This document shows, one piece after another, positions 8,613 through 31,266 of a stretch of DNA of 31,802 nt. Source of the stretch: a virus; the IMG/VR virus record IMGVR_UViG_3300027773_000003, positions 1-31,802 of that record; one strand, 5' to 3'. The notes under the pieces are model-generated. The model searched no databases. It worked only from the letters and a program-made list of their open reading frames with translations, and had not been told where the DNA came from. Within the stretch, counting starts at the first letter, position 1; every line of letters starts with the position of its first letter. A program made the position numbers and the translations under genes.

Positions 8613-8616
8613 ACAG

Positions 8617-12734: not shown

Positions 12735-12747
12735 CGCATAAAGGTAC

Positions 12748-13980
12748 ATGGCAAATCAATTTTTAAACACTAACTGGGTCTCGATGGAGATCCTACGTCT
12801 CCTGCTCAACCAGCTGGAGATCGCCGAATATTTCAACCGCGAGTGGGAGCGCGATTTTGACAAGGAATTCGCGCCCGGTTCGTCGATTACGGTCAAATTC
12901 CCGCAGCGCTTCACCACGGCTGACGGCATGGGCTATCAGCCGCAGGGCATCAACCGTGTGTCGACCACCATTAGCCTGGATCAATGGATTCAGGTGGCTT
13001 TCGAGTGGGATGATTATGAGCGCGCTGTGAAACTCGAGCGCTCAGAAGAAGAGCTGCGAGAGAACTACTGGCAGCCCGCTGCGGCGGCCTTAGCGCAGGA
13101 ATTTGACTCGCGTGCCGCCAAGTTCGCCTATCAGAACGCGAGTAACATCGCCGGTGTGCTGGGCACCGATCCCACATCCGTGGCCACCTACTATACGGCG
13201 CGGCAGATCCTCAAGCAGGAGGCCTGCCCGCCCGGCAAGCGCTGTATGCAGATATCGACCTCGATGATGGCCTCGCTCGGTGCTAACATCACCAATCTGT
13301 TCAATCCGCCCGATGAAATCACCAAAATGTGGAAGGAAGGCGCGATCGGCAGGCTGGCGGGCTTCGATTTCTACGAGTCCAACTCGCTGTGGAGCCATAC
13401 TGCGGGCTCGATTGCGGCTACGCTGACGGTCACCGGCGCCAACCAGAGCGGCACATCGCTCGTGGTGACCGGCTCGCCCGGCGATGTGCTGAATCAAGGC
13501 GATAAGATCGCCATCGCCGGTGTAAACCGGGTCAATCCGATGACGCGGCGCAGCGCCGGCCCGCTGACACCGCGCACGTTCACGATTACGCAGACGGTGA
13601 CGCTCACGGGCGGCAACGACACCATCAACATCTTGCCTGCGATTTACGGACCCGGCAGCCAGTATCAGAACGTGGACAGCTTGCCGGCCAACGGCGCGGC
13701 GATCACGCTCTGGCCAGGGACCGCCTCACCCAACGGCAAAACCGGCACCGTGGGCTTGGCGCTGTCGCGTTTCGCCTTTGCGCTGGTGGGAGCGCGCCTG
13801 TATGTACCGAAAGCGGTGGAGCAATCCGGACAGGCGCAGGATCCCGACACCGGCATTGCCGTGAGGAAAGTGGTGGCCTGGGATCCGGTGCGATCGATGC
13901 AGATCAACCGCATGGATTCGCTCATCGGCTTTGGCAATCTGTATCAAGCCAACGGCGCGGTGGCGGTCTTAGGCGCCTAA
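12748..13980 (+). CDS. Major capsid (coat) protein, P22 gp5 family
   Basis: A 410-aa protein, close to the 430 of P22 gp5, with the HK97 fold of that family. Features include the N-arm MANQFLNTNWVSMEILRLLL, the E-loop-like NRVSTTISLDQWIQVAFEWD, and a spine helix region EELRENYWQPAAAALAQEFD. A beta-rich insertion at about 225-310 (LTVTGANQSGTSLVVTGSPG, DKIAIAGVNRVN) corresponds to the I-domain of the gp5 family. AAAGG precedes the ATG. Confidence 0.93.
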   Translation: MANQFLNTNWVSMEILRLLLNQLEIAEYFNREWERDFDKEFAPGSSITVKFPQRFTTADGMGYQPQGINRVSTTISLDQWIQVAFEWDDYERAVKLERSEEELRENYWQPAAAALAQEFDSRAAKFAYQNASNIAGVLGTDPTSVATYYTARQILKQEACPPGKRCMQISTSMMASLGANITNLFNPPDEITKMWKEGAIGRLAGFDFYESNSLWSHTAGSIAATLTVTGANQSGTSLVVTGSPGDVLNQGDKIAIAGVNRVNPMTRRSAGPLTPRTFTITQTVTLTGGNDTINILPAIYGPGSQYQNVDSLPANGAAITLWPGTASPNGKTGTVGLALSRFAFALVGARLYVPKAVEQSGQAQDPDTGIAVRKVVAWDPVRSMQINRMDSLIGFGNLYQANGAVAVLGA

Positions 13981-14001
13981 CTCAGATCAAGGAGAAACAC
14001 G

Positions 14002-14733
14002 ATGAAGCGATTCGAAAAACTCTTCCTTTCCGGCGCCGCGGTGCTGGCGCTTTCTCTGACTGCAGCGGCGCAAACCGCGCTGACGCAGACCACGCTGGTC
14101 TCTGCGATTAACGCATCGCAGACCAGCTTCAAGCTGGCTTCGACCGCCGGCATCACGCCGAATGCGACCGATCTGTTCATCGATAACGAGCTCATGGCGG
14201 TGTATGCGGTGAACGGCAACACGGTGACGGTAGGTCCGCGCGGGGCTGCCGGCACCAAGGCCTTCGCGCACATTGCCGGCGCAGGTGTGCTGGCAGGGCC
14301 GCCCCAGGCGTTCATCGCCTATGACCCGAGCGGTGCCTGCAGCCCCGGCCAAGGGCTGTTTCAATACGCCCCGGTGGTGAATATCGCCAACGGCAACCAG
14401 TGGCTGTGTTCGAGCGTGCTGAATAAAGTGGCGCCCGGCTTTGGCAATACAGCCGATCCGGCTCTGCCCACCTCTGCGGTGGCTTCCGCTTCTGCCATCA
14501 CCCCCAGCGGGCCTCTGTTTCATGTCACGGGCACGGCGGCGATCTCGACCATCAACCTGCCGGTCGGATTCGATCCGAAAGGCGGCGGTTCGTTCACGAT
14601 CATCGCCGACGGGGTCTTCTCCTGGGGCACGGGCGGCAATATCGCAGTAGCCTCCGGCACCGTGGTAGTAGGCCGTTCCTACACCTTCACCTACGATCCT
14701 CAGACCCAGAAATTCTACCCCAGCACTCAGTAA
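14002..14733 (+). CDS. Putative head decoration/surface protein with signal peptide
   Basis: A 243-aa protein. Residues 1-23 (MKRFEKLFLSGAAVLALSLT, then AAA) form a classical signal peptide, with predicted cleavage before Gln. The mature part starts with a beta module (TTLVSAINASQTSFKLASTA...ATDLFIDNELMAVYAVNGNT) of the kind found in phage decoration or fibre proteins. It ends with a second beta domain (GGSFTIIADGVFSWGTGGNI). GGAG lies 8 bases before the ATG. It follows the coat gene, where many phages encode decoration proteins. The export signal is odd for a protein that should assemble in the cytoplasm. Confidence 0.7.
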   Translation: MKRFEKLFLSGAAVLALSLTAAAQTALTQTTLVSAINASQTSFKLASTAGITPNATDLFIDNELMAVYAVNGNTVTVGPRGAAGTKAFAHIAGAGVLAGPPQAFIAYDPSGACSPGQGLFQYAPVVNIANGNQWLCSSVLNKVAPGFGNTADPALPTSAVASASAITPSGPLFHVTGTAAISTINLPVGFDPKGGGSFTIIADGVFSWGTGGNIAVASGTVVVGRSYTFTYDPQTQKFYPSTQ

Positions 14734-14741
14734 CCAGCTTC

Positions 14742-14772
14742 GGGCGCGCCCTCTTTTTCCGAGGGCGCGCCC
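14742..14772 (+). terminator. Strong hairpin between head and tail modules
   Basis: GGGCGCGCCCTC (14742-14753) pairs perfectly over 12 bp with GAGGGCGCGCCC (14761-14772), with loop TTTTTCC. There is no T-run after it, so it is more likely a transcript-stabilising or partial terminator element that lowers expression of the tail genes relative to coat and decoration protein. Confidence 0.7.
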
Positions 14773-14825
14773 TGGCTGCAAGACTTGGTTTGGACCTCCG
14801 GCTTTGCCCAGAGTCGCGATAAGCC

Positions 14826-15245
14826 ATGCCTCTTTATGAAGCCGCCAGCTATCGCACGCGGCACCACTTATCAAAGGAGCAACGCGCCGAAGCGCATCGG
14901 GCGCTCTTCGGCTTCGCAAGACATATGGATGTACATCTGACCCTGGAAGAAATCGAGCGCATGCGCGAGCTGGTTCGCTCGCACGATCACGCGCGCCAGG
15001 CCGAGACGCAAGAGTTCGACCTGAACGATCCGCCGCAAAAGCCTTATGTATATGAGGAGTTTCCGCGCCTGGTATATCACCACGAGCAGCGCATGCATCG
15101 CGCCGTGCGCAACGAGAAAGAGCTCGCCGAAGCGCTCAAAGCTGGCTTTAGACGAGAGCCTTCGCCGTGCGAGCACAGCGAGCTGGAGGAAGAAAACGTG
15201 GCCGGGCTGCCGCTTGTCGAAGCACAAGCCAGACGGAAGAAGTAA
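14826..15245 (+). CDS. Phage head-tail interval protein, unknown function
   Basis: A 139-aa protein. A helical N-terminus (LSKEQRAEAHRALFGFARHM, LTLEEIERMRELV) leads to the distinctive PPQKPYVYEEFPRLVYHHEQ...AVRNEKELAEALKAGFRREP. Phage proteins with this PY..FPR..YH........NE.E..AL..G pattern often lie between capsid and neck genes, and their role is unclear. The start has no strong ribosome-binding site. The stop TAA is followed directly by the GTG of the gp4-like gene. Confidence 0.65.
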   Translation: MPLYEAASYRTRHHLSKEQRAEAHRALFGFARHMDVHLTLEEIERMRELVRSHDHARQAETQEFDLNDPPQKPYVYEEFPRLVYHHEQRMHRAVRNEKELAEALKAGFRREPSPCEHSELEEENVAGLPLVEAQARRKK

Positions 15246-16010
15246 GTGTCCACCTGGGGCGATCTGATCACCGATGCGCTGATCGACGCCGGCGTCTATT
15301 CCAGTGTCGAAGCGATTCCGGCGGCCGATTTCGAGCTGGCGGCGCGGCGGCTCAACCGCATCCTGGATCAGCAGGCAGCGCTGCGGCGCTATGCCTATAC
15401 CACCCAATTTACGCAATATACGCTCACCCCGAATCACGCCCCGCACCTGATCGGGCCCAACTTGCAAAGCCCTGATCTGGCCACGCCGCTGGCAGCGCCG
15501 CGGCCGGTGCGCATCGAATCGGCCGCGCTGATCTTAAACGATGTCACGCCCAACGTGGATGTGCGCTTACATCTGCGCGATCGCGCCTGGTGGGCGGATC
15601 AGCATGTGAAATCGCTCTCTAGCAATGTACCGACCGATGTCTATTATGAGCCGGACTGGCCAAACGGATCTTTGTATCTGTGGCCGGTGCCGGCCTATGC
15701 TTACGGCCTGCGTCTGGAGATGTGGACCGCGCTGGGGCAGATCCCGCTCGATGCCAGCGGCAATCTGAATTTTAAGGCCAGCTTCCAAGCTCCTCCCGGG
15801 TATGCAGAGCTGCTGCTGGCCGAGCTGATTGAGAAGCTGTGCCAGAGCTATGGGAGGCCGCTGACGCCGGCGCTGACTGAGCGGCTGCGCCGGGCCCGGG
15901 CGGCAGTGGAGGCCTATCAGTCGCGCTCGCCGCGCACCGCAAGCCTGGATTACGGCACGCGCGGCAGCTCGCCCGGCGGCTTCAATTACTACTCGGGCGG
16001 TCCGGCTTAG
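15246..16010 (+). CDS. P22 gp4-like tail accessory (portal-closing) protein
   Basis: A 254-aa protein from GTG 15246. The N-terminus STWGDLITDALIDAGVY...ADFELAARRLNRILDQ is the helical start typical of the gp4-like family. These proteins dock under the portal after packaging and hold DNA in the head. Strands (TTQFTQYTLTPNHAPHLIGP, VRIESAALILNDV) and an SLYLWPVPAYAYGLRLEMWT segment follow. P22 gp4 is shorter (166 aa), so this is a longer family member. Order coat-gp4-gp10 is as in P22. Confidence 0.85.
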   Translation: MSTWGDLITDALIDAGVYSSVEAIPAADFELAARRLNRILDQQAALRRYAYTTQFTQYTLTPNHAPHLIGPNLQSPDLATPLAAPRPVRIESAALILNDVTPNVDVRLHLRDRAWWADQHVKSLSSNVPTDVYYEPDWPNGSLYLWPVPAYAYGLRLEMWTALGQIPLDASGNLNFKASFQAPPGYAELLLAELIEKLCQSYGRPLTPALTERLRRARAAVEAYQSRSPRTASLDYGTRGSSPGGFNYYSGGPA

Positions 16011-17462
16011 ATGCGGTTTGAGGGTTTTATCGGCGGCTCGGGCTCGGCGCTCTCGCTGCAGGCCGATGCCGAGCGCGCGGTGAACTTCTATGTAGAGCGC
16101 ATCGACTCGCCGACGGGGCGCACCAAAAGCGATCGTATTCTGCTCTCCCGGCCCGGCCTGTCGCTGTTTTGCAGCCTGCCCGCGCCGAGCGTGCAGGCCT
16201 TGTGCGCCATCAATGGCCGCGCCTTTGCCGCGGCGGGCGGCCAGTTCTTCGAGCTTCTGGCCGGGGGCAACTACACGGCTTACAGCGGCTATCTGGGCAG
16301 CGGGCGCGTACAGCTCTGCGCCTCACAGACTCAGATTCTGATCCTGGCGCCGGCCGGTGGCTATATCTTCGATCTGGCCGCCAGCACGCTGGCTCCCATT
16401 ACCGCTGCAGGATTTCCTGTGGGCGCCACGAAAGCCGCTTTTATTGACGGCTATTTCATCGTCTTGGAGCCTCATTCGCAGAGCTTCGCCATTTCTGCCT
16501 TAAACGATGGCACGCAGTGGGATGCGCTCGATTTCGGCACCGCAGAAGGCGAAGCGGGGGACGTCGTCACTCTCCTGGCCGATCACCGGCAGCTGTGGCT
16601 GCTGGCCAACACGCACGGGGAGGTGTACTACGATTCGGGCAACGCGAATTTTCCCTTTTCACGACTAGAAGGGGCGTTTTTCGAACAGGGCTGTGCCGCG
16701 ATCGATTCGGTGGTGAACATCGACAACACGATCCTGTGGCTGGGCCAGAACCGTGACGGGGCTGCCATCGTCTGGCGCGCCAACGGCTATACGCCGCTGC
16801 GCGTCTCCACGCACGCTTTCGAAAGCCAAGTCTCGCAGTACCCTACCCTCTCTGACGCGACCGCCTACTGCTATCAGGAGAACGGACACACTTTCTACCG
16901 GCTGGATTTTCCGAGCGCCCATAGCGGAAGAGGCGCCACCTGGGTCTACGACATCGCCACGGGCTTGTGGCACGAGCGGAGCTGGTGGAATGCGCAGCAG
17001 GGACTGGCCTATGCCGATCTGGCGCGCACGCACTGTTTCGCATTCGGCGAGCACCTGGTAGGCGACTATGCTTCAGGGAATGTGTACATTCAGTCGATGC
17101 GGTATGCGACGGACAATGGCGCACCCATCCGGCGCTTGCGACGCGCGCCCGCGCTGGCCCACGGCGGCCGGCGGCTGTTCTTCCGCGAATTGCGGGTTCT
17201 GGCCGAGACGGGCGTAGGCCTGGATGGCGGCCTGGTGCCCGGCTCCGATCCGCAGCTGGTGCTGCGCTGGTCGAATGATGGCGGGAAAACCTTCTCTAGC
17301 GATGTGTCGCGCTCGCTGGGCCCGCTCGGTCAATATCAGACCATCTTGCGCTGGCCGCATCTGGGCAGCTCCTTCAATCGGGTATTTGAAGTGGAGTGCG
17401 CCGAGCCGGTGTTTGTCGCTTTGATCTCGGCCGAACTGGATATCGAACCGGAGGCGCGCTAG
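16011..17462 (+). CDS. P22 gp10-like packaged-DNA stabilisation/tail hub protein
   Basis: A 483-aa protein, nearly the length of P22 gp10 (472). The N-terminus MRFEGFIGGSGSALSLQADA...RAVNFYVERIDSPTG, followed by SRPGLSLFCSLP, fits this family: NF..E......G......R.PGL. Repeated beta blades follow (VQALCAINGRAFAAAGGQFF, LYLAP-like segments), as in the gp10 tail-hub beta structure that receives the tailspikes. The ATG follows the previous stop directly. Confidence 0.88.
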   Translation: MRFEGFIGGSGSALSLQADAERAVNFYVERIDSPTGRTKSDRILLSRPGLSLFCSLPAPSVQALCAINGRAFAAAGGQFFELLAGGNYTAYSGYLGSGRVQLCASQTQILILAPAGGYIFDLAASTLAPITAAGFPVGATKAAFIDGYFIVLEPHSQSFAISALNDGTQWDALDFGTAEGEAGDVVTLLADHRQLWLLANTHGEVYYDSGNANFPFSRLEGAFFEQGCAAIDSVVNIDNTILWLGQNRDGAAIVWRANGYTPLRVSTHAFESQVSQYPTLSDATAYCYQENGHTFYRLDFPSAHSGRGATWVYDIATGLWHERSWWNAQQGLAYADLARTHCFAFGEHLVGDYASGNVYIQSMRYATDNGAPIRRLRRAPALAHGGRRLFFRELRVLAETGVGLDGGLVPGSDPQLVLRWSNDGGKTFSSDVSRSLGPLGQYQTILRWPHLGSSFNRVFEVECAEPVFVALISAELDIEPEAR

Positions 17463-17464
17463 GT

Positions 17465-19018
17465 ATGGATGTCAGGCTGACGCCGGCCGCGGCGCAGCAG
17501 ATACTGATCGGTCCCGATGGGCGTCTGACGCGCGACGGCATTATCTTTCTGCAGCAATTGCTGGCGGTGGCGCAGCAGGCGGCCGCGGCGCAGGACACGA
17601 GCGCGGGCGCCTTGCAGGCAGCCAACAATCTGAGCGATGTGACCAGCGTGGTGACGGCGCGGGCGAATCTGGGCTTGGGCAGCGCCGCCACTCATGCGGC
17701 CACCGATTTTGATCCGGCTGGGGCCGCGGCGGCCGCGCAGGCGGCCAGTCTGCAAAAAGGCGCCAATCTGGCCGATGTGGCCAATGCCGCAGCGGCGCGG
17801 GCGAATCTGGGCCTGGGCAGTGCCGCCACCGCTAACACGGGCAACCTCAGCGAAGCCACTAGCGATGTGTTGCTGATCGGCGGAGGCATAGGGGCGGTGC
17901 TCGGGCCGGGCACTACAATCCAGGTGCAGCAGGCTTCGGCGGCGCAGGATGGCTATTTATCCAAAGGCGACTGGGCCACGTTCAATGCCAAACAACCGGC
18001 GCTCTCGGTCGTCAACGATACCAACGTCACGGGTGCGGTGTCCGGAGGCAGCTTCACGCTGGGCTGGTCGGGCACGCTGGCGCTGGCGCGCGGGGGTACT
18101 GGCGCCGCCACGCCTGCGGCCGCACTGGCCAATCTGGGCGGGGCCAGCCTGACGGCGGCCAACACGTTTTCGGGTGCCCAGACGTTCTCCGGCACGAATC
18201 CGCTGACCATCCTCACGGGTACCGCCAGCGATACCATGCCGGCCTTGAGTGTGGCGCTGGTCGCCGGGGAAATTCACAGTGACGGCAGCGCTACCTCCGA
18301 CTACGGATTCCTGCGGCTGTCGGCTGGCGGAGGCACGGATTTAAACACCAAAGCGGCGATTGACTTAAATGGCTACGGCGCCAGCGATAACTCCCAGATC
18401 CGCTTTTACACAGCAGGTCTCGAGCGCGGGCGGATCACCACCAGCGGCAATCTGCTGCTCGGCACCACCTCGGATGCCGGCAGCGCTTATAAACTGCAGG
18501 TCCAGGGCGGCCTGTCGGTTTCCGGCAGCGGCCTGTTCTCCGGGCAGGTGAATTTCGCGGGCACGACGCTGGCGGGCTCCGGCAATGCCGGCTCTACGGG
18601 CACCTTACAGTGGCAAGCCAATCCCGGTTCGCCCGTATCCGGGCGGCTGCTGTTCGGCACGGACGGCACGGGCTGGCAGCTGCGCATCGGCAAGAACCAG
18701 GGCGGAGCCATTACCGATTACGTGCAGGTGCAAGATAACGGCGCCTGGACGTTTCTTTCGGGCTGCGCTGTGACTTTTAGCGGCGGCGCGACGCTCAATT
18801 CGGGCCTGAATCTGAACGGGCAGACCGTCTCCGGCAGTGGCACCTTTTCGGGTACGGTGACCTTTTCGAATCCCGTCAAGATGAGCCAGAATGCGACCGG
18901 CTCGGGTGCGGCGGCGCTGGGCGCCAATTGCCCGGCGGTCACGCTCGGGGCGCCCTACACCTGGCTCAAGCTGACGGCCGCCGATGGCTCGACGGTATAC
19001 GTGCCGGCCTGGAAATGA
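17465..19018 (+). CDS. Tail fibre / needle-position protein with RANLGLG repeats
   Basis: A 517-aa protein taken to start at ATG 17465, with GGAGG ten bases upstream. The N-terminus LTPAAAQQILIGPDGRLTRD probably binds the tail hub. Two near-identical ARANLGLGSAAT units (from about 17655 and 17799), the phrase DGYLSKGDWATFNAKQ and AGGTGAATPAAALANLGG are typical trimeric phage-fibre repeats. The C-terminus ends in TYVPAWK-like residues (GSTVYVPAWK). It occupies the position of the gp26 needle in P22. Receptor binding or cell-envelope penetration is likely. Confidence 0.82.
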   Translation: MDVRLTPAAAQQILIGPDGRLTRDGIIFLQQLLAVAQQAAAAQDTSAGALQAANNLSDVTSVVTARANLGLGSAATHAATDFDPAGAAAAAQAASLQKGANLADVANAAAARANLGLGSAATANTGNLSEATSDVLLIGGGIGAVLGPGTTIQVQQASAAQDGYLSKGDWATFNAKQPALSVVNDTNVTGAVSGGSFTLGWSGTLALARGGTGAATPAAALANLGGASLTAANTFSGAQTFSGTNPLTILTGTASDTMPALSVALVAGEIHSDGSATSDYGFLRLSAGGGTDLNTKAAIDLNGYGASDNSQIRFYTAGLERGRITTSGNLLLGTTSDAGSAYKLQVQGGLSVSGSGLFSGQVNFAGTTLAGSGNAGSTGTLQWQANPGSPVSGRLLFGTDGTGWQLRIGKNQGGAITDYVQVQDNGAWTFLSGCAVTFSGGATLNSGLNLNGQTVSGSGTFSGTVTFSNPVKMSQNATGSGAAALGANCPAVTLGAPYTWLKLTAADGSTVYVPAWK

Positions 19019-22088: not shown

Positions 22089-23726
22089 ATGCCAGATCAA
22101 CCAGCTTCCCCTCCGGCGCAGCCGGCCGATGTCTCGCTCTACACGCTGGCGCCCGCGGCGCAGCAGAAACTGGACGGCATCATTCAGCAGATGCAAGCCA
22201 ACGGCGAGAGCGACGACTATATCCGCAACGTGGTCAGCGATTTCAAGCAGAAATACGGGGCGCCCCCGGGCCCTGTGCAGCGGGCGCTGAACTATCGTAC
22301 CGGCAATCAGTGGATTGACGCGCCGCTCGGCGTGCTCGAAGGAGTAGGGAAAGGGGCGGCCAGCACCCTGTATGGCACCCTCGATCTGGCGAACCAGGTG
22401 GTGCCGCATCCCATCGAGCTCAATCCGGAGTACCGCGCTTCGGTCACGCAAACCAACGGGATCGGCCAGAGCATCGGCAAGTTTGCCGAGCAGACGGGGG
22501 AGTTTCTGCTGCCGGATGCGCTGGCAGGCAAAGCGGTGGAAGGTTTGCCGCTGCTGGCGCGCCTGGCCGCCAAAGGCGCCACCGACGCCGGCGTGGCAGG
22601 CATCCAGTCGGGCGGGAATCCCACGGCGATGATCGTGGGCGGGGCACTGGGCGCGGGGGGCGAACTGGCCGGCAGCGGCATCCGGGCCGTGCGCGAGCTG
22701 GGCAAAACCAAAGCTCCTACGCTTCCGAATTACTGGGATGCCTTCGCCGCCACGCCCGGGCAGCGGCCGGAGATCGGCGATGCGGTGCCGGTCCTGACGC
22801 GCGATGGCATTATGCCGGGCAACTCGCCCGGAGAAATGCTGGAGGCAGTCCAAAACCGGCTAGCCGCGCTCAAAGCTCAGTATCAGGCGCTCGATCCCGC
22901 CATCGCCTCGCGCTCGATTGACGCCGATGTGGTGATCCGGGATTTGCAGGCGCAGCAGGCGGCGTATATGAAAGGCGTCGAAGAGCAGATGCGGCAAGTG
23001 CCTACCGGACTGGTCGATCCGCGGGGCCAGCCGATCCTGCACACGCAAGTGACGAGCCAGCCGCTGGTGTCGCCCGCCAACGAGAAATACTTCCGCCAGC
23101 TCAACGACGAAATCGAGTTCGTGCGGCGCCTGGCGGCGCAGAACGACGGCCAATTGACCTTCGACCAATTGCGTTATCTGCGCGATGGCGCCAATGGCAA
23201 AACCAGTTTCAGCGATCCGCCGGAGGATCGGAATCTGTTCCGCGGCATCGGCAATGCCTACCGTCGCGCCATGGACTTTATCGCGCCCGAAACCACGCCG
23301 CTCAACCGCGATTACGCCACCTACAAGAATCTGCTGGAGATCGCGCAGGAGAACGTGAATAAGGGTCGCGGCCTGGTGCCCTCCGGGCTCGAGCAGGCCT
23401 CGGAGAAAGCCGCCAGCAGGCAGACGGGCCTGGTGCTGGGCGGAGCCATCGGCGAAGCGGCAGGACACGCCACCGGCATTCCGGGAGCCGGTTGGGTCGG
23501 GGCAGGACTGGGCGGAGCTGTCGGAGCCGCGGTCTGGCCGAAGCTGTCAGCTCCGGTGGTGCAAACGCTCAAGAACGCTGCCGAAAACGGCGCTCTCGAG
23601 CATATGGCGCCGGCGAAACTCAAGCTGTTGCAGTGGGCGGCGAGTGTGGGCGACAATCAGACGATTCTCAGCCTGCTCGGCCAAGCCGCCGGAAAAGCTA
23701 AGGCTACCGAGATCGCCTCGCAGTGA
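22089..23726 (+). CDS. Ejection protein, gp16-like
   Basis: A 545-aa protein (P22 gp16: 609). A helical start (DGIIQQMQANGESDDYIRNV) is followed by hydrophobic/glycine-rich membrane-active segments: about 170-205 (TAMIVGGALGAGGELAGSGI) and near 455-485 (GLVLGGAIGEAAGHATGI, GAGLGGAVGAAVWP). Between them lies a long helical domain with NEKYFRQLNDEIEFVRRLAA. No transglycosylase or protease catalytic motif is visible. Third in the ejection triplet, it probably inserts in the host membrane. Its 3' end overlaps the minus-strand membrane gene by 23 bp. Confidence 0.75.
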   Translation: MPDQPASPPAQPADVSLYTLAPAAQQKLDGIIQQMQANGESDDYIRNVVSDFKQKYGAPPGPVQRALNYRTGNQWIDAPLGVLEGVGKGAASTLYGTLDLANQVVPHPIELNPEYRASVTQTNGIGQSIGKFAEQTGEFLLPDALAGKAVEGLPLLARLAAKGATDAGVAGIQSGGNPTAMIVGGALGAGGELAGSGIRAVRELGKTKAPTLPNYWDAFAATPGQRPEIGDAVPVLTRDGIMPGNSPGEMLEAVQNRLAALKAQYQALDPAIASRSIDADVVIRDLQAQQAAYMKGVEEQMRQVPTGLVDPRGQPILHTQVTSQPLVSPANEKYFRQLNDEIEFVRRLAAQNDGQLTFDQLRYLRDGANGKTSFSDPPEDRNLFRGIGNAYRRAMDFIAPETTPLNRDYATYKNLLEIAQENVNKGRGLVPSGLEQASEKAASRQTGLVLGGAIGEAAGHATGIPGAGWVGAGLGGAVGAAVWPKLSAPVVQTLKNAAENGALEHMAPAKLKLLQWAASVGDNQTILSLLGQAAGKAKATEIASQ

Positions 23727-23982
23727 ACCGCGGCCGCGCCTGCACCGTGATGCCGTAGCGTTTGCGGAAATAAAACGGGACGGCGAGGCTTTCTAGCCAG
23801 TAGTAGAGTGGCGAAAGCAGACGGAAAATCCGCTGCACCCACCAGGCGAGAGTCAGGCAGGCATGGCAGCCTATGAGCACGAGCCACAGAATAGAACGCG
23901 GTCCGCCACCCGGCTGCGGCGGATACAACAGCGCACTAACGATGGCCGCCGCGAATGTCAGAAGCCAGAGCCTTTCGATCAT
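23704..23982 (-). CDS. Small two-helix membrane protein
   Basis: A 92-aa protein with two hydrophobic segments: residues 4-20 (RLWLLTFAAAIVSALLY) and about 30-48 (SILWLVLIGCHACLTLAWW). A third, weaker one (LYYWLESLAVPFYF) and a basic tail follow. It is encoded on the opposite strand to the tail genes and overlaps the ejection gene's 3' end and the upstream minus gene. Two helices with a basic C-terminus is a class II holin shape, but other phage membrane roles fit too. No family is recognised. Confidence 0.6.
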   Translation of the reverse strand: MIERLWLLTFAAAIVSALLYPPQPGGGPRSILWLVLIGCHACLTLAWWVQRIFRLLSPLYYWLESLAVPFYFRKRYGITVQARPRFTARRSR

Positions 23983-24172
23983 CGCCGTGTGTGATATAGC
24001 GGCAAGCCATACGGATCAGCAAGCCGGCGAGCAGAGGCAGAAACGGCACCAGACGGTCGACATCGCTCTGGATGCCGGAGCCCACGCTAAAACCCAAAAA
24101 CGCGAGAGCCATCCACAGCAGGCTCAAAAGCAGCCAGGCGCGTCGCATCACGCCACAAACATACCGCGGCAT
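23936..24172 (-). CDS. Small membrane protein, partner of the next minus gene
   Basis: A 78-aa protein from ATG 24172 (MPRYVCGVMRRAWLLLSLLW). An ATG eight codons later (MRRAWLLL) is equally possible; neither has a clear ribosome-binding site. It has hydrophobic helices at 13-30 (LLLSLLWMALAFLGFSVG) and about 43-58 (LVPFLPLLAGLLIRMA), then a charged tail. The frame remains open upstream into the copied initiator fragment, where it reads PKRLLSFFQSLPENQRAQ, as in the initiator. A fused longer form from a TTG is conceivable but lacks a ribosome-binding site. It overlaps the next minus gene by 47 bp. Confidence 0.55.
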   Translation of the reverse strand: MPRYVCGVMRRAWLLLSLLWMALAFLGFSVGSGIQSDVDRLVPFLPLLAGLLIRMACRYITHGDDRKALASDIRGGHR

Positions 24173-24251
24173 CAGACCCGGTGTCGATAGCCCGGCGGAG
24201 ATAGGGTGTAATGGTACTCCGTTGCGCAGAGAAAAGCAGCCGCGCGCGCAC

Positions 24252-24375
24252 TGGGCGCGTTGATTTTCTGGAAGTGATTGAAAAAAAGAGAGTAATCGTT
24301 TGGGCAAGTTATTTTGGCCAAAATTCTGTTCGCCTTTTTTTCTCTCTGGTTCCGCTCCACCTTGCCGCAGAGATA
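24252..24375. repeat. Duplicated initiator-gene fragment with iteron palindrome
   Basis: This 124-bp stretch matches 29255-29379 in the initiator gene except for one single-base indel in the T/CT tract (about 24335-24345). Weaker similarity extends some 15 bases to the left. It includes the palindrome ATTTTGGCCAAAAT (24311-24324). The indel breaks the initiator frame, so it is not a functional coding copy. It forms most of the leader of the tailspike gene, which starts 39 bases later. Confidence 0.93.
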
Positions 24376-24414
24376 AAGAAAGCTTCCTTTCACTTTCGCA
24401 ATAAGGAAAACGTC

Positions 24415-26313
24415 ATGAAACGCCTTCTTAGTGCGCTGGCGCTGCTATGCGCTGGCACGGTGATCGTGTGCGCCCAAAATGCGGCGCCGATGCCCATCCC
24501 CAAACAGCAGTTTCTGGACGCGAGCGGCGTGCCGCTCGCCGGCGGGCTCGTCTACACTTGCGTGGCAGGCAGCGCCTGTCCGGGCAATCCTCTGGCGACC
24601 TATACCGATGCCAGCGGCAGCGTGCAGAATCCCAATCCCATCGTGCTCGATGCGGGCGGCTATGCCTCGATCTGGCTGGGCCCGTCCGCTTATAAGATCG
24701 TGGTGGAAAACGCGCTGGGCGTGGTGCAGTGGACGCAGGATAATGTGCAGAACAACGGGCTGGCGCTCAGCCAGCTCAAATGCAGCCCGCTCGGCATGGC
24801 CTGTCTGGATGCCCAGGGGTTCGTATTACAGTCTGAGCTCAACTACAACCGCGGCGGCGCCAGCACGGTGAACCGCTCGATAGCAAGCAAACTGGGAGAT
24901 ACGGTGAGCGCGCTCGATTTTGCGGGCGCCGATCTGGGCGCTCAGATCAATGCTGCCATCTCTGCGCTCGGCACACGCTGCGGCACGATCGTCATTCCGG
25001 CAGGAGTATACAGCTTTGCGACGCCCATCAATGCCGATCAAACGGTGGGCTGCACAATTGTCGGCGCCGGCGGTCTGACCGGTGGGGCTCAGGCAGCCGT
25101 ACAGCTCCAATACACGGGCACGGCCACGCCCATCTCGGCCCGTTCTTCTTCGGCGTTTCGTCTGAGCGGGGTGCAGCTTGTGGTGAACAATAGCGGCTTC
25201 CACGGCTATGGCATCGACCTGAGCCACACGGGCACCGGCTGCGGAGGCGGGGGCTGTGACTCAGCCTTTTGGCAGATCGATCATGATTCGTTTTATGCCT
25301 CCGGTTCGGCGCAGTATGCGGCGGTGATCAACGCCCAAGACACCATTGAAGGGACCATTGAACGAAACGCCTTTGGCAACTACATCTATGCGATTCAAGG
25401 GGCGATCAATGGGAACACGGATTACGCCAATGCCAGTCTCGTCCGGGGCAATCAATTCCTGCACAGCTCCTACACCCTGGCCGATATCTTTGGCCCTACG
25501 CAGGGCTGGCAGATCACCAGCAACACGTTTGAGCTGGCTGCCGGTACGGGTTCGGTGATCGCCTTCAACAGCACAACGAGCTGCACCGGCTGTGTGTTCG
25601 CGGCTAACTGGATTGGGGATGTGGCGACGACTAGCGCGTTTAACGTGGTGAATGTCTTTGGGGGCGGCTGGCAGATCAGCGGCAACTACGTGGCTTTGAA
25701 CGCGGCGCAGACGCAGACCGCCTTCAATATCGGATCTGGCTTGGCAGGTCTGTCTCTCACGGGCAACACCATCCAGAACTATGCTTGCGCCGTCAACTTC
25801 AATGGCGGCACCCCGGTGAAAGATGTAGTGATCCTAGGCAATAACGATGGCGGACAAAATGCGGTGTGCGGCCCGTCTCCGACGACGGGCACCAGCTCCA
25901 CCGCGGGCTACACAGCGATCTACAATGCGTTGCAAATCTTGGGCAGCTCCGCTCTACCCGCCAGTACCGGCAGCGCATTGTATCTGGCAGCCGGTTTTGC
26001 CTCCCCTGTCCTAGGGCGCATCTACGTGGGTGATGGCACGGGTTATCAGCTAAACCTCGCGAAGCGCTCGGCCAGCACCGACACCGATCTGTTTCAGTTC
26101 CGGGACAGTGGTCAGCTCATCACATCTGGCAACGTCACGGTGCAAAGCGGCGGCTTGACCGTCCAAAACGGCGGCCTGAGTATTACCGGCGGCGCCACGA
26201 TTACCGGCACGATTCAAAACCCCACCATCAAAGCCAATAGCGGCACCCGCTATGTGTGCGTAGACACAAGCGGCAATCTGGTCTCGCAGACCACGGCCTG
26301 CTCCGGCACCTAG
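24415..26313 (+). CDS. Tailspike with head-binding domain, beta-helix and signal peptide
   Basis: A 632-aa protein. Residues 1-20 (MKRLLSALALLCAGTVIVCA) look like a Sec signal peptide. A tailspike-type N-terminal binding domain follows: PKQQFLDASGVPLAGGLVYT...LATYTDASG...NPNPIVLDAGGYASIWL. Then comes a pectate-lyase-like right-handed beta-helix (from about 165, VSALDFAGADLGAQINAAIS, IVIPAGVYSF, repeated N..F/N.I turns). The C-terminal tail GTRYVCVDTSGNLVSQ resembles that of other fibre proteins. The likely role is receptor polysaccharide binding or cleavage. AGGA lies 8 bases before ATG 24415. The open frame extends upstream through the duplicated fragment, but that part is not expected to be translated. 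Confidence 0.88.
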   Translation: MKRLLSALALLCAGTVIVCAQNAAPMPIPKQQFLDASGVPLAGGLVYTCVAGSACPGNPLATYTDASGSVQNPNPIVLDAGGYASIWLGPSAYKIVVENALGVVQWTQDNVQNNGLALSQLKCSPLGMACLDAQGFVLQSELNYNRGGASTVNRSIASKLGDTVSALDFAGADLGAQINAAISALGTRCGTIVIPAGVYSFATPINADQTVGCTIVGAGGLTGGAQAAVQLQYTGTATPISARSSSAFRLSGVQLVVNNSGFHGYGIDLSHTGTGCGGGGCDSAFWQIDHDSFYASGSAQYAAVINAQDTIEGTIERNAFGNYIYAIQGAINGNTDYANASLVRGNQFLHSSYTLADIFGPTQGWQITSNTFELAAGTGSVIAFNSTTSCTGCVFAANWIGDVATTSAFNVVNVFGGGWQISGNYVALNAAQTQTAFNIGSGLAGLSLTGNTIQNYACAVNFNGGTPVKDVVILGNNDGGQNAVCGPSPTTGTSSTAGYTAIYNALQILGSSALPASTGSALYLAAGFASPVLGRIYVGDGTGYQLNLAKRSASTDTDLFQFRDSGQLITSGNVTVQSGGLTVQNGGLSITGGATITGTIQNPTIKANSGTRYVCVDTSGNLVSQTTACSGT

Positions 26314-26315
26314 CC

Positions 26316-26522
26316 ATGTCTTTGCACAACGATCCGGCCGCCTGCGCCGCATTGCTCTATCTGGCCTACGCGATCGGCTCGAGTGCGGTGCGCGCGCTGC
26401 CCGAACCGAAGCCCGGTGCGCCGCCGGCCTATGTGTGGTTCTACGGGTTTGCGCATGCACTGGGAGCAAATTGGGACCGGGTACGGGCGGCGCTCCTGGT
26501 GATCCTGAAAATTTCCGCTTGA
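26316..26522 (+). CDS. Small holin-like membrane protein
   Basis: A 68-aa protein from ATG 26316, just after the tailspike stop. Residues 5-24 (DPAACAALLYLAYAIGSSAV) are hydrophobic, then a PEPKPGAPPAYVWFYGFAHALGAN segment and a last helix (RVRAALLVILKI). Short phage proteins with a PPA..WFY.F.HAL..N motif after the tail genes are common and usually called hypothetical or holin-related. It is the best lysis-gene candidate here, although no endolysin accompanies it. Confidence 0.6.
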   Translation: MSLHNDPAACAALLYLAYAIGSSAVRALPEPKPGAPPAYVWFYGFAHALGANWDRVRAALLVILKISA

Positions 26523-26599
26523 CGCGGCCTCCGGTTTCCCGCTAAGCTTTTCCTGTCCGGTGCGCAAGGTTTCGTTTTTAGCCCTGCCCTGACGGCCAG

Positions 26600-26617
26600 T
26601 TATTTTGGCCAAAATTC
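26600..26617. repeat. Lone copy of the iteron palindrome
   Basis: TTATTTTGGCCAAAATTC here is identical to 24309-24326 and 29312-29329. It lies in the AT-richer gap (26523-26736) between the tail module and hicAB, where nothing codes. The surrounding bases do not match the initiator gene, unlike the 24252 copy, so the 18-mer itself seems to be what is kept. Confidence 0.85.
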
Positions 26618-26700
26618 CATTCCCCAAACGAACGAAATTTAACTCTTCGCGCAAGTCCTTATTTTTCCAATAGAAAGCTGAATTTGCATGCTTTTGTAGC

Positions 26701-26730
26701 TTGCCGGATCGGACAAATTTGTCCGATACT
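26701..26730 (+). promoter_or_regulatory. hicAB promoter with palindromic operator
   Basis: TTGCCG (26701-26706), 18 bases, then GATACT (26725-26730) forms a plausible promoter. The perfect 20-bp palindrome ATCGGACAAATTTGTCCGAT (26708-26727) fills the spacer and touches the -10. It lies 9 bases before hicA. HicB antitoxins with a C-terminal HTH repress their own operon at such sites, so autoregulation is the natural reading. Confidence 0.8.
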
Positions 26731-26736
26731 AGAACC

Positions 26737-26955
26737 ATGAAAGGCTCCGAGTTCCTGCGCCGAATCCAGGAGCTCGGGCGCGAAAAGGGGATCCCAGTGA
26801 GCTTTGTGCCGCACCGCGGCAAAGGCAGTCACGGCACGCTGTATTTTGGCGAGCGGCGCACGATTCTTCGTAACCCGAAAGACGAACTGAAGAAAGGCAC
26901 GCTGCACGCCATGCTCAAGCAGCTCGGGATCGATTGGAAAGAGTTCTCGCAATGA
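26737..26955 (+). CDS. hicA: HicA-family mRNA interferase toxin
   Basis: A 72-aa protein of the usual HicA size, starting MKGSEFLRRIQELG at ATG 26737. It has the double-stranded-RNA-binding-like fold. The catalytic His is His32 in GKGSHGTLYF. The typical C-terminal KKGTLHAMLKQLGI helix follows. HicA cleaves mRNA and is blocked by HicB. It starts 9 bases after the palindromic operator and is followed after 19 bases by hicB. In a phage it may stabilise a carried element or block rival phages. Confidence 0.92.
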   Translation: MKGSEFLRRIQELGREKGIPVSFVPHRGKGSHGTLYFGERRTILRNPKDELKKGTLHAMLKQLGIDWKEFSQ

Positions 26956-26974
26956 GGAGGTAAGGAGCAGGACC

Positions 26975-27427
26975 ATGCGCAGCTATGAATACCCGGCGAA
27001 TTTCAAACGCGCCCGCGAAGGCGGATTCGTCATTACGTTCCCCGATCTGCCGGAGGCTATTACGCAGGCGGAAACCCTTGAGCAGGGACTGGAAGAGGCC
27101 GCCGATGCGTTGGAGGAAGCCATCATTGGAAGGATCAACACCGGCGAGCCCATCCCACCGCCTTCTCCGCCGCGCAAACGGCAGTATCTGATTCCGGTGC
27201 CGGCACAGGCCGCCTTCAAGGCTGCGTTGTGGGAGGAGATCCGGAGCCAGGGTTTGAATAAGGTGGAACTGGCGGCGCGGCTGGGGATTGATGAAAAAGA
27301 GGTGCGGCGGCTGCTAGATCCGCATCACGCTTCGAAACTCCCGCGCATTGCTGAAGTGCTCGAGCGAGTGGGAAAGCATATCGTGGTGGGGGTGCGGGAC
27401 GAACGGGAACTGGCGACACATGCCTAA
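26975..27427 (+). CDS. hicB: HicB-family antitoxin
   Basis: A 150-aa protein. Residues 1-65 (MRSYEYPANFKRAREGGFVI, FPDLPEAITQAETLEQGLEE, ALEEAIIGRI) are the partial RNase-H-like HicB fold that covers the toxin. Residues about 85-135 (KVELAARLGIDEKEVRRLLD, LPRIAEVLERVGKHI) form an Xre-type helix-turn-helix, which would bind the palindrome upstream of hicA. GGAGG and AAGGAG precede the ATG. The 3' half lies antisense to a minus-strand gene ending at 27216. Confidence 0.92.
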   Translation: MRSYEYPANFKRAREGGFVITFPDLPEAITQAETLEQGLEEAADALEEAIIGRINTGEPIPPPSPPRKRQYLIPVPAQAAFKAALWEEIRSQGLNKVELAARLGIDEKEVRRLLDPHHASKLPRIAEVLERVGKHIVVGVRDERELATHA

Positions 27428-27560
27428 GGTGACGCCGCAAACGTCTCTCTCGCGCGATGGATACCGCTCTTTCGAGGCGGATCCCAATCTTTTTGAACTC
27501 ACGGCGCAGCGGCCAGAGCAGGAAGGGCGCGGCGGCCAGCAACAGGAGGGTGAGCTTCAC
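27216..27560 (-). CDS. Small membrane protein at the end of the replication operon
   Basis: A 114-aa frame from GTG 27560, overlapping the previous stop as GTGA. Residues 1-17 (VKLTLLLLAAAPFLLWP) form a membrane helix followed by a basic stretch (RREFKKIGIRLERAVSIARE). The C-terminal 70 residues are low-complexity Pro/Ala-rich and lie antisense over hicB for 212 bp. The N-terminus looks genuine; the tail may be read-through into DNA brought in with hicAB. No family is recognised. Confidence 0.45.
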   Translation of the reverse strand: MKLTLLLLAAAPFLLWPLRREFKKIGIRLERAVSIARERRLRRHLRHVSPVPVRPAPPPRYAFPLARALQQCAGVSKRDADLAAAAPLFHQSPAAPPVPPYSNPGSGSPPTTQP

Positions 27561-27811
27561 GGATTCGTGATTTCGCGGTGGTGCACCTGCTGGAAGAGCT
27601 GGCACCAGCGCCGCCACTCGGCTGCGCTCCATTGCTTACCGTAGCTGCGGATATGGATCCACTTGATCAAGGCCTCGATGGGCACTTGGTAATGCTCAGC
27701 GATGGCGACCAGGTTTTCGGCGCGCTGGGCCAGCTCCTCCGGCGGATCGCGCAGCTCCTCACACAGCGCCCGGCGCACCCAGGCCAGGGCAGCCTTTCTC
27801 ACCTCGATCAT
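27557..27811 (-). CDS. Small protein of the replication operon, unknown function
   Basis: An 84-aa helical protein (RKAALAWVRRALCEELRDPP, LAQRAENLVAIAEHYQVPIE, SAAEWRRWCQLFQQV). Both ends overlap neighbours by 4 bases (27808-27811, 27557-27560), which supports the start. The middle (LVAIAEHYQVPIEALIKWI) resembles a short DNA-binding helical pair, but no family is recognised. Confidence 0.6.
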   Translation of the reverse strand: MIEVRKAALAWVRRALCEELRDPPEELAQRAENLVAIAEHYQVPIEALIKWIHIRSYGKQWSAAEWRRWCQLFQQVHHREITNP

Positions 27812-28077
27812 ACGTGCCTCCCCTCGCTCCCGAGCCCGGCGAGAGCGGCGTGAGCTTCATAGCCGCCTGCGCGCAACTGGGCGATGAGGCCTTCGATCAC
27901 ACAGCGGGCTACGTCCGCGCAAAAACCCTGATTGCCAGCCTGGCACAGGGCCAGGTGCAATTCGCCGGCAAGCGCCAGCGCGCTGTCTAGATCGAGCGTG
28001 AGTCGGATCTCGCGTTCGCCCAGCCGTTTGCGCTCTTCGCGCAGGCACTCGGCAAGCAGCGTCTCAGGAACCCCCAT
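27808..28077 (-). CDS. Small protein of the replication operon, unknown function
   Basis: An 89-aa protein. A charged helical start (PETLLAECLREERKRLGERE) is followed by LTLDLDSALALAGELHLALC and CVIEGLIAQLRAGGYEAHAA helices with three Cys. AGGAG lies 8 bases before the ATG. It overlaps the upstream gene by 14 bp and the downstream one by ATGA. It could be a replication accessory factor judging only by its place after the initiator. Confidence 0.6.
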   Translation of the reverse strand: MGVPETLLAECLREERKRLGEREIRLTLDLDSALALAGELHLALCQAGNQGFCADVARCVIEGLIAQLRAGGYEAHAALAGLGSEGRHV

Positions 28078-28411
28078 GCGCTCGCTCCTCTCGCTTTGGG
28101 GGACAGCTTTCGGCCCTCAGTTGTTCGAGCTCGGCTAACAGCGCAGCAGTGATTTCTGCCAATTCGGCATCGCCGGCATCCACCAGTGCTCCGCCGGCGC
28201 CCTGCGCCAAGTCGCGCCAGAACAGGCGCGTCGATGCGCGGCCGCGGCCGTAAAACGGCTTCGCGTGGATAGCCAGAGCAGGATGGCGGCGGAAGGCTTG
28301 CCGCAGTTTGGCGAGTCCGCGCGCAAGCGGCGTCATCGCGAACCCTCCCGTGCTGTGGCGCTGACGCACGCAGGCGCCGCACAGCAGGCCATCGGCTGCC
28401 CGAAGGATCAC
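28064..28411 (-). CDS. Small protein immediately after the initiator
   Basis: A 115-aa protein from ATG 28411, in an ATGA overlap with the initiator's stop. LCGACVRQRH near the N-terminus is a possible half zinc site. Basic helical (RGLAKLRQAFRRHPALAIHA) and acidic helical (AELAEITAALLAELEQLRAE) parts follow. In lambda the gene after the initiator is the helicase loader P, and position alone raises that idea. The sequence is too short and shows no loader motif. Confidence 0.6.
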   Translation of the reverse strand: MILRAADGLLCGACVRQRHSTGGFAMTPLARGLAKLRQAFRRHPALAIHAKPFYGRGRASTRLFWRDLAQGAGGALVDAGDAELAEITAALLAELEQLRAESCPPKREERAHGGS

Positions 28412-29712
28412 GGTTGACCCTCCGTTGCGGTCAGCCGCCGCATCTGCGCGTAAAAAGCTTCTATATCGAACGCCTCCTCCTCGGGCGGCGGGATCGCTTG
28501 CTGCTGCTGTTGGGCCCGTTGGCGGTCCGCTTCGACTTCGCGCGGATGCTGGCGGATCCAGCCGGGCAAGTCGGCCGTCACCATGTCGTACAGCGCGCCG
28601 GGGGAATGGATGGGATAGCGCTGTGTGCGTTTGCGGTCCAACTTTTCCACCAGGAAGCGCCAGACGCTTCGAGCGGGGATGGCGAATTGCGCGGCGAGTA
28701 GCTGGAATTTGGCTCGGAGCGGATCTCCGCTGCCCAGCTTACGCCCAAAGAAGTGTTGCACGCAATCCACGATCGGGTCCTCGTCGCAGAGTGGGTCCTC
28801 GATTGCCCCCTTACCTAAACAGGAAGGGTTTGGGGTGAGTGGGGTGGCGGGCGGGCTGGGGGCCCGGGGAGGATCCGGCGGAGCGGTCTTTTCCACAGCT
28901 AGAGCGGCGCCACTCACTCTCTGATTCTCTGTATTCTCTGACGAGAATAAGGATGCACTTATTTGGCCACCCGCGTTTTGATTTTTGGCCACATCCTCAT
29001 TTGCATTTTGGCCAAAATTCCCGTTCTGGTTATTTTGGCCAAAAAAAATCTCGGGCGGTCGCAGAAGCGAAAGCTGGAGCAGCGCCGGCTCTGTGTGCGC
29101 CACTTTCGGGCGGCCGCGGGATTCCTCGCCCACAAAGCCGATGGAGGCGAGGTACCGATCCTCGAGTTGCTGGGCGACCTCTCGTGCCTGGCGCCTAGCC
29201 TCGGCTTCGGCCTGCTTGCCCCACTCCAGCAGCTGCAGGTAGCCGTGCAGGTATTGGGCGCGTTGATTTTCTGGAAGTGATTGAAAAAAAGAGAGTAATC
29301 GTTTGGGCAAGTTATTTTGGCCAAAATTCTGTTCGCCTTTTTTCTCTCTCTGGTTCCGCTCCACCTTGCCGCAGAGATAGAGCCGGCCGGTTTCTGCATC
29401 GCGGCGTGCCAAGCCGCAGCCTGCAAGCTCATCCCAGACATAGCTGGCAGTCGAGATCGGCCAGTTGAGATCGGCGGCCAGGTGCTTGAGACCCAGCTCG
29501 CCGCGCTCGTCTTTAGCGTAGGGCGTGCGGCCCCCGCGCTTGGCGCGGAGGGTCTTCCAGCGCAGCCAAGCCAGCGCCCGCTGTCCGCGATCGCTCAATC
29601 TCATGTCCTCATCGAGAAAACACATGTATTGATCGGGTGGCATGGGATCCCAGCCGTTGGGCGAGCCTATCTGGCGCATTAGGTGATCGTGGACGGTGAC
29701 GCTGCTGCTCAC
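28408..29712 (-). CDS. Replication initiator, winged-helix, with origin inside the gene
   Basis: A 434-aa protein from GTG 29712 (GTGA overlap with the previous stop). An earlier ATG at 29796 would overlap that gene by 88 bp. Residues 44-115 (RGQRALAWLRWKTLRAKRGG, LGLKHLAADLNWPISTASYV, GLARRDAETGRLYL) form a winged helix, as in phage O and RepA-type initiators. FGQNN occurs at residue 130 and again near 223 and 230; these codons are the iterons. A low-complexity Pro/Gln linker precedes a C-terminal helical domain (IVDCVQHFFGRKLGSGDPLR, SVWRFLVEKLDR). I infer that the N-terminal domain binds the iterons and the C-terminal part recruits host helicase or loader. Confidence 0.75.
   Translation of the reverse strand: MSSSVTVHDHLMRQIGSPNGWDPMPPDQYMCFLDEDMRLSDRGQRALAWLRWKTLRAKRGGRTPYAKDERGELGLKHLAADLNWPISTASYVWDELAGCGLARRDAETGRLYLCGKVERNQREKKGEQNFGQNNLPKRLLSFFQSLPENQRAQYLHGYLQLLEWGKQAEAEARRQAREVAQQLEDRYLASIGFVGEESRGRPKVAHTEPALLQLSLLRPPEIFFGQNNQNGNFGQNANEDVAKNQNAGGQISASLFSSENTENQRVSGAALAVEKTAPPDPPRAPSPPATPLTPNPSCLGKGAIEDPLCDEDPIVDCVQHFFGRKLGSGDPLRAKFQLLAAQFAIPARSVWRFLVEKLDRKRTQRYPIHSPGALYDMVTADLPGWIRQHPREVEADRQRAQQQQQAIPPPEEEAFDIEAFYAQMRRLTATEGQP
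28959..29045. repeat. Iteron cluster, likely replication origin
   Basis: Four TTTGGCC units lie in the initiator gene: TTATTTGGCCAC (28959-28970), ATTTTTGGCCAC (28981-28992), ATTTTGGCCAAAAT (29005-29018) and ATTTTGGCCAAAAA (29032-29045). Their GGCC centres are 22, 23 and 27 bp apart, about two helical turns. The units are palindromic (TTTTGGCCAAAA). AT-richer sequence (28918-28960, with ATTCTCTG repeated) lies on one side and could unwind. A fifth full palindrome is at 29314-29327. The layout matches lambda ori in gene O. Confidence 0.75.
29255..29379. repeat. Source copy of the 124-bp duplication within the initiator gene
   Basis: These 125 bases encode part of the initiator around residues 111-152, including VERNQREKKGEQNFGQNN, and contain the palindrome at 29314-29327. 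They match 24252-24375 apart from one indel. The two copies are in direct orientation, offset by 5,003 bp at their left ends. Confidence 0.93.
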
Positions 29713-29945
29713 TGCGCGGACCCTCCTTCCGGCTGGCGCTCCAGGCGACGGCGCTCTGCTAGTGCTTCTTCGAGGGCGCGCGCGGTGGTCAGACATTCAG
29801 CAGCACGACCGAACTCTTCCGGCGGCAACGCTCGGGCGATGGCGCGCAGGCGTGCGACGGCTTCTTGCGGCGTAAGGCGGTCTGCTGGGACTTCTAGTAC
29901 TTTTGCCGTGTCCCAAACGGCGGAAATGTTTTTGGCGATCCTCAT
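29709..29945 (-). CDS. Small protein upstream of the initiator, unknown function
   Basis: A 78-aa protein from ATG 29945, with AGGAG four bases upstream. The N-terminus MRIAKNISAVWDTAKVLEVP precedes a helical body (TPQEAVARLRAIARALPPEE, AECLTTARALEEALAERRRL). It ends in a GTGA overlap with the initiator, so the two are translationally coupled. It may regulate initiator level or replication. No known family is evident. Confidence 0.6.
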   Translation of the reverse strand: MRIAKNISAVWDTAKVLEVPADRLTPQEAVARLRAIARALPPEEFGRAAECLTTARALEEALAERRRLERQPEGGSAQ

Positions 29946-30264: not shown

Positions 30265-30295
30265 AGTATACGAGTTAAGTTCTCGGGCATGTCAA
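30265..30295 (-). promoter_or_regulatory. Minus promoter of the replication operon
   Basis: Reading the complement, TTGACA (30295-30290) is followed after 19 bases by TATACT (30270-30265). Both hexamers are near-consensus, though the spacer is slightly long. Transcription would start near 30258 and run to the 51-aa gene and the initiator. The -35 box overlaps the start codon of the recombinase gene at 30289, so the two promoters are face to face and would interfere. Confidence 0.6.
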
Positions 30296-31266
30296 GCCCG
30301 GAGCAATTAAAGCTGTTCGATACCGGCCCCGGATATCTCAGCCGATTGCGACAGAAGCGGGAGGAACTGATGAAAGCTTCGCATGCGCCGCGCACCCGTG
30401 CCGCCTACAGCTATACCTGGATGATCTTTGCACGCTGGTGCGAGCAAGTCGGAGGCCAGGCGCTGCCCGCCACGCCCGAAACGGTCGCCGATTTTGTGGT
30501 CTGGAGTCTGTACGAACGGCAGCCGCCCTACCGCTTGCAGACGGTGCAGCTGACGCTCTATGCCATCTCTCACCGACATCAGCAGGAGCACCTGCCTTCG
30601 CCGCTGACTGACAACGTCAAGCTGCTGGTGCGAAACGCCAAACGCGATCTGCGCGAGCGGCCGCAATACGCGCAGGCGCTCGAGCCGGCCGAGCTGAGGC
30701 GGATCTGTCGGCAGTTGTGTACCACCGTTCCCATCGACATTCGCGACCGCGCTCTGATCCTGACACAGTTTGCGGCTGGCTGGCGCCGCGAAGAGATCGC
30801 TTCGCTCGACCGCTGCGATGTGCGCTTCATGCGCAAAGGGTTTCTGCTCTCGCTCGGCGCTTCGAAAACCGATCAGGATGGGAGCGAGGGCCGGATCGTC
30901 GCCATCGAGTACGGCGCACACGCTGTGACCTGTCCGGTGCGGGCGCTGCGCGAATGGCTGGACATCCGGGGCACCTGGCCCGGGCCGCTGTTCTGCGCCA
31001 TGTATGGAGGCGGGATCCACCCGCAGCGTTTGAGCGGCGATGCGATCAACGAACGTTTCAAGCTGGCCGTGGCCCGCGCCGGCCTTCCGGCAGCCCGCTA
31101 TAGCTCGCATTCGCTACGCGCCGGTATGGTGACGGCGGCTATCGAACGCGGCGCGCCTGAAACGCTCATTATGCTGCGCACCGGGCACAAATCGCTGGAC
31201 TCCATGCGGCGCTACGTGAGGCCGGCGAAGGCCTGCCGCTTCAACGTGCTTCAGGGCGTACTTTAA
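30289..31266 (+). CDS. Full-length tyrosine recombinase/integrase
   Basis: A 325-aa protein with an N-terminal SAM-like core-binding domain (residues 28-125, RTRAAYSYTWMIFARWCEQV) and a catalytic domain. Catalytic residues: Arg166 in GWRREEIASL, Lys193 in ASKTDQDG, His274 and Arg277 in SSHSLRAGM, His300 in RTGHKS and Tyr309 in MRRYVRP. All are present. ATG 30289 has no ribosome-binding site. An in-frame ATG at 30370 has GGAGG five bases upstream and may be the true start, giving 298 aa. It could integrate the phage or resolve dimers of a circular element. It is convergent with the gene at 31263-31628, overlapping by 4 bp. Confidence 0.92.
   Translation: MSSPEQLKLFDTGPGYLSRLRQKREELMKASHAPRTRAAYSYTWMIFARWCEQVGGQALPATPETVADFVVWSLYERQPPYRLQTVQLTLYAISHRHQQEHLPSPLTDNVKLLVRNAKRDLRERPQYAQALEPAELRRICRQLCTTVPIDIRDRALILTQFAAGWRREEIASLDRCDVRFMRKGFLLSLGASKTDQDGSEGRIVAIEYGAHAVTCPVRALREWLDIRGTWPGPLFCAMYGGGIHPQRLSGDAINERFKLAVARAGLPAARYSSHSLRAGMVTAAIERGAPETLIMLRTGHKSLDSMRRYVRPAKACRFNVLQGVL

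Follow-up and report, generated by a model that had tools for sequence, protein, structure and literature searches.

The window analysed here, i.e., the whole 31,802-nucleotide stretch of the IMG/VR virus record IMGVR_UViG_3300027773_000003, is a circular assembly, as indicated by the 127-base overlap of its ends. The phage genome is podovirus-like with a P22-type portal, and the relatives of its major capsid protein that were found within bacterial genomes were all located in Acidobacteriota assemblies; the phage comes from soil and is of the Acidobacteriota type. Two overlapping minus-strand genes that encode membrane-protein-like products stand between the structural genes and the tailspike gene (Table 1). 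The gap that separates the tailspike from the nearer membrane gene is 248 bp long, and half of it is taken up by a copy of DNA from the inside of a replication-initiator-like gene. Because two transcription directions part in this gap, separate promoters must lie there. The order tailspike - initiator - integrase was the same in the window and in two relatives from IMG/VR contigs, G001 (IMGVR_UViG_3300036790_000324) and G050 (IMGVR_UViG_3300036805_000152). The 31.7-kb phage has two different tyrosine recombinases, of which the one at 2410-3069 (minus strand) is kept by the relatives L007 and L013 and the one at 30289-31266 by G001 and G050; a 32-bp nearly perfect palindrome (2995-3026) lies in the frame of the former, near its start. 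In addition, a stretch of roughly 110 bp occurs twice in tandem (17578-17829, 72% identical) within the fibre-like gene 17396-19018. Signal-peptide-like starts are unusual for virion-module proteins. Both the tailspike and the 14002-14733 protein have secretion-signal-like starts that end in A-Q (24415-24480 and 14002-14070, respectively); the same signal-like start was observed in most of the relatives, in over twenty contigs (L005, L006, L008, L016, L031, L032, L072, L078, L082, L105 and others), and the G001 tailspike had no such start.

Table 1. Positions of the genes and candidate sites discussed in the text
Feature	Position	Strand	Remark
Second small membrane-protein-like gene	23704..23982	-	overlaps 23936-24166; no family match
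Small hydrophobic (membrane-protein-like) gene	23936..24166	-	divergent from tailspike; no convincing family match
Copy of initiator-gene DNA, tailspike / membrane-gene intergenic region	24252..24375	+	124 bp
ATTTTGGCCAAAAT perfect palindrome in the copy	24311..24324	.	centre 97 bp before tailspike ATG
Tailspike, 632 aa	24415..26313	+	signal-peptide-like start
Third location of the site	26594..26625	+	palindrome 26602-26615, centre 128 bp before hicA ATG
HicA toxin	26737..26955	+	
HicB antitoxin	26975..27427	+	C-terminal HTH
Replication-initiator-like protein, 462 aa	28408..29796	-	winged helix - linker - helical C-terminus
TTTTCCACA, DnaA-box-like, beside the cluster	28889..28897	+	at corresponding place in G001, absent from G050
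Cluster site 4 (probable), weak half-site (TTATTTGGCCAC)	28960..28971	.	
Cluster site 3 (probable), two mismatches	28983..28994	.	
Cluster site 2 (probable), ATTTTGGCCAAAAT	29005..29018	.	
Cluster site 1 (probable), TTTTGGCCAAAA	29033..29044	.	
Initiator-gene segment from which the copy derives	29255..29379	-	protein segment aligns with relatives
Distal initiator site (probable), ATTTTGGCCAAAAT	29314..29327	.	same alignment column as the relatives' longest palindromes
Tyrosine recombinase adjoining the initiator	30289..31266	+	same order in G001 and G050

The sequence-only reading had described 24252-24375 as a near-exact copy of 29255-29379 with one palindrome and a frame-breaking indel, and all three points were confirmed. 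In a local alignment of the 124-bp copy with its 125-bp source, all of the aligned bases were identical, and the sole difference was a single-base gap: source base 29344 is absent from the copy after 24340, which breaks the initiator frame. In a self-BLAST of the window, the pair (E about 1e-46) was the strongest repeat after the end overlap. The initiator gene can be regarded as the origin of the copy since the source segment is coding, conserved and aligned with the relatives, and the near-identity of the two stretches indicates that the copy is recent. The copy has a G+C content of 44%, compared with 63% for the genome. Its palindrome is perfect over 14 bp and lies near the middle, 59 bp from the left and 51 bp from the right end; under a first-order model about 1e-4 occurrences of ATTTTGGCCAAAAT are expected in the whole window, in which four are present. 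The plus-strand frame of the copy runs open into the tailspike by accident (ORF 24211-26313). A promoter search revealed no consensus sigma-70 promoter in the copy, and neither an Rfam family nor a tRNA was found in the window.

Judged from sequence and predicted structure, the protein encoded by the source gene represents a new family of replication-initiator-like proteins. It belonged to no Pfam or PHROG family, with a winged-helix match below the threshold only; the replication families of Pfam and PHROG, including lambda O homology, gave no match up to E 1, and the RepA_N domain (PF06970) was matched by none of three members of the family. The structure model has a winged helix at residues 69-141 and a helical C-terminus, and its low-confidence linkers are where the palindromic sites are encoded. 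When the full model was compared with the PDB using Foldseek, the first three matches, and five of the top six, were N-terminal domains of replication initiators or Rep-DNA complexes (4pql, 4pt7, 4pta, 5kbj). RepA-type plasmid initiators topped the ranking with modest E-values, none of which reached 0.001; those of the top matches were 0.009-0.06, which is of low confidence. A search with the domain alone found a generic winged helix that also matches IclR and NtcA and is not initiator-specific. Three relatives share about 30% protein identity with the initiator of the window, the third being G016 (IMGVR_UViG_3300050821_007730), which is provisional, as its gene was read across contig ends that have no overlap and between which the frame continues. 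Scans of the viral contigs with single proteins (the initiator and the product of the 22089-23726 gene) and of the genome contigs with the initiator yielded no relatives, and neither did a profile of the initiator when it was run against 396 Acidobacteriota genomes, a search run without a positive control. Nothing in the phage and plasmid records closely matched the origin, the initiator or the leader, whether at the DNA or the protein level.

Palindromes occupy the same alignment columns in the four initiators: the distal one at 178/179 and those of the cluster at 303 and 312 in all of them, and at 320 and 327 in some. Their core is TTTTGGCCAAAA in the window phage and CTGTACAG in the three relatives, which is a contrast of GGCC versus GTAC at identical positions, and the putative recognition helix also differs between the window phage and the relatives. 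At the distal site, the palindrome is perfect in each of the four (14, 10, 18 and 22 bp); in the window this site lies 280 bp from the cluster, is the most perfect palindrome and is the one that the copy carries. When translated, the sites give different residues (FGQN versus CTD or SVQ), which means that the DNA is kept and not the peptide. Because the columns are the same in four initiators while the core differs, the palindromes are likely to be the initiator sites of an origin that lies within the initiator gene itself, an arrangement shared with lambda O and pSK41 Rep. The region 29000-29049 is 66% A+T, and the TTTTCCACA box beside the cluster was common to the window phage and G001 only. 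The exact 18-mer TTATTTTGGCCAAAATTC was absent from other viral contigs, and among the contigs in which two TTTGGCCAAA sites lie close together, none codes for a homologue of a protein of the window. In one unrelated viral contig (L131:3525-3716), about 190 bp contain five TTTGGCCAAA sites, perhaps as another iteron array.

The site was found at a third location, upstream of hicA, which agrees with the region of the distal site at 28 of 32 bases and has an intact 18-bp core, while the outer flanks are at background identity (17/86); the alignment score was 44 compared with at most 26 in 300 shuffles. This intact core between background flanks suggests that the site itself matters as DNA. Both of the extra sites are intergenic, and each is followed by a start codon after about 100-130 bp. 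Among the phages compared, sites outside the initiator gene occurred in the window phage only: with up to one mismatch, there were none in G001 and G050, which were fully read, or in the part of G016 that was read (all but bases 8001-17455). A 20-bp perfect palindrome, ATCGGACAAATTTGTCCGAT (26708-26727), ends 9 bp before the hicA ATG and is a possible HicB operator. HicB was also considered as the binder of TTTTGGCCAAAA, which is disfavoured both by this palindrome of hicA's own right before its start and by the relatives without detectable hicAB, which keep the same-column sites.

Starting from the observed duplication, the site that both places share and the conserved positions of the sites, we propose that the copy is a recent ectopic duplication around the distal site that created a functional extra initiator-binding site, to which we assign a probability of roughly one half. 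Binding of the initiator to the copy is likely because the palindrome is the perfect distal one, and we infer it from the co-divergence of the sites and the protein. The suggestion of a second initiator-binding site in the sequence-only reading was sound, given a source in a replication-initiator-like gene and a palindrome that is positionally conserved. The origin would lie inside 28408-29796 and would consist of the distal palindrome and of four palindromic iterons, one of them weak, located where the gene codes for a disordered linker. The duplication would have put a perfect initiator site between the tailspike and the two opposite-strand membrane-protein genes, where an initiator dimer may bind via its winged helix as it would at the origin. 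Once bound, the initiator could hinder or modulate the divergent transcription, or the copy could hold it back from the origin or loop it away; the more diverged site upstream of hicAB might act likewise. Several points count against an extra binding site, namely that one difference in 124 bp signifies recency and not constraint, that the copy showed no consensus sigma-70 promoter, that the relatives do without sites outside the initiator gene, and that the fold matches of the protein are of modest significance and, for the domain alone, not initiator-specific. Regulation of the tailspike or hicAB by the initiator is possible, any effect on expression being a guess. It is rather doubtful that the initiator doubles as a transcription regulator, in which case duplicated origin sites would place the promoter of the hicAB toxin-antitoxin genes and the divergent promoter between the tailspike and the membrane genes under the initiator level, and late and stability genes would be tied to replication.

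A neutral scar is a realistic alternative to the extra binding site, although we consider it to have somewhat less than an even chance. Here, template switching or illegitimate recombination during replication would have copied 124 bp into a tolerant intergenic spot, where they would be functionless and decaying. The single change, which marks a young copy, is consistent with this, as is the distribution among the relatives. The sequence-only reading had raised the question of whether the copy recurs before other tailspikes; within the contig parts at hand, a comparable copy was absent from the leaders of all ten relatives with similar tailspike heads, which leaves it specific to this phage among those seen. 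Moreover, G001 has a duplication of its own tailspike leader (64 bp, 91%; L098:4068-4131 and 4947-5010) that is unrelated to the copy of the window, which implies that the junction is duplication-prone. This duplication in G001 includes a GTCCGAATTTTTCGGAC palindrome and brackets a minus-strand ORF, as if a cassette had entered. In G050, the tailspike starts within about 10 bases of the preceding reading frame and has no leader of the window's kind. What argues against a scar is that a perfect initiator site lies near the middle of the copy, between divergent genes, and that a second extra site with a conserved core lies before hicA.

The remaining explanations are far less probable. If the tailspike mRNA began before position 24252, it would include 124 nt able to pair with the central part of the initiator mRNA, so that late tailspike transcription could stop translation of the initiator. 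The copy and its source are direct repeats and the two genes lie on opposite strands, which fits; such an orientation, however, arises in one of two cases by chance, the target is mid-gene and not the ribosome-binding site, the strand (folded as DNA) has no notable fold (z -0.95), and no plus-strand promoter was found upstream of the copy, which makes this trans-antisense role improbable. It is hardly more credible that the 5-kb segment flanked by the repeats was imported through recombination at the 124 bp. Although direct repeats do bracket 24376-29254, including the tailspike and hicAB, the tailspike import envisaged in the sequence-only reading is not needed, as the relatives already have the tailspike, the initiator and the integrase in the same order, and the gene that contains the right repeat is intact and conserved. 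An assembly chimera is very improbable: the identical block of 89 bp is shorter than the apparent assembly k-mer of 127 (from the end overlap of exactly 127), the indel tells the copies apart, both flanking genes are intact and the gene order matches that of two relatives. Least of all do we expect a secondary origin, a weak proposal despite the one perfect initiator site in AT-rich DNA, since the copy has the single distal site, with neither the cluster of four sites nor the AT-rich and DnaA-box-like surroundings found at the main locus, and in lambda the minimal fragment competent for unwinding comprises two iterons and the adjacent AT-rich region (PMC7466680).

The phage was caught soon after a probable origin site had been copied into the control region of another gene and, provided that the initiator binds the copy, would illustrate how replication and the expression of late genes become wired together. 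The family, in which the protein and the embedded sites appear to have changed together, may also serve as a natural test bed for initiator-site co-evolution. Lambda has four inverted-repeat iterons inside its O gene, which the O protein binds via its amino-terminal half (PMC7466680, PMC4488673). Dyad-symmetric iterons lie likewise inside the gene of the window's initiator, as they do in all four initiators; unlike lambda O, this protein has neither sequence similarity to it nor a family match, the cores are different, and there are an additional distal site and the extra sites elsewhere in the genome. A second group of close counterparts comprises the RepA_N plasmid initiators, such as Rep of pSK41, and RepA of PLE, with DNA binding by an N-terminal domain, four Rep boxes in the central part of rep and a linker that the ori encodes (PMC5703833, PMC7145576). 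The window gene similarly holds four putative binding boxes (one weak) and the distal site, and the full model of its product gave fold matches to 4pt7, 4pta and 5kbj at low confidence; in contrast to the RepA_N proteins, it has no Pfam RepA_N match, belongs to an Acidobacteriota-type phage and has its distal site set apart. Extra origin sites on a plasmid can compete for the initiator, and ectopic ori-lambda arrests lambda (PMC4488673). By analogy, the copy may be an extra origin site that could compete for its initiator, with the difference that it is one site only and acts in cis, within the genome of the phage itself, where titration would be a putative effect.
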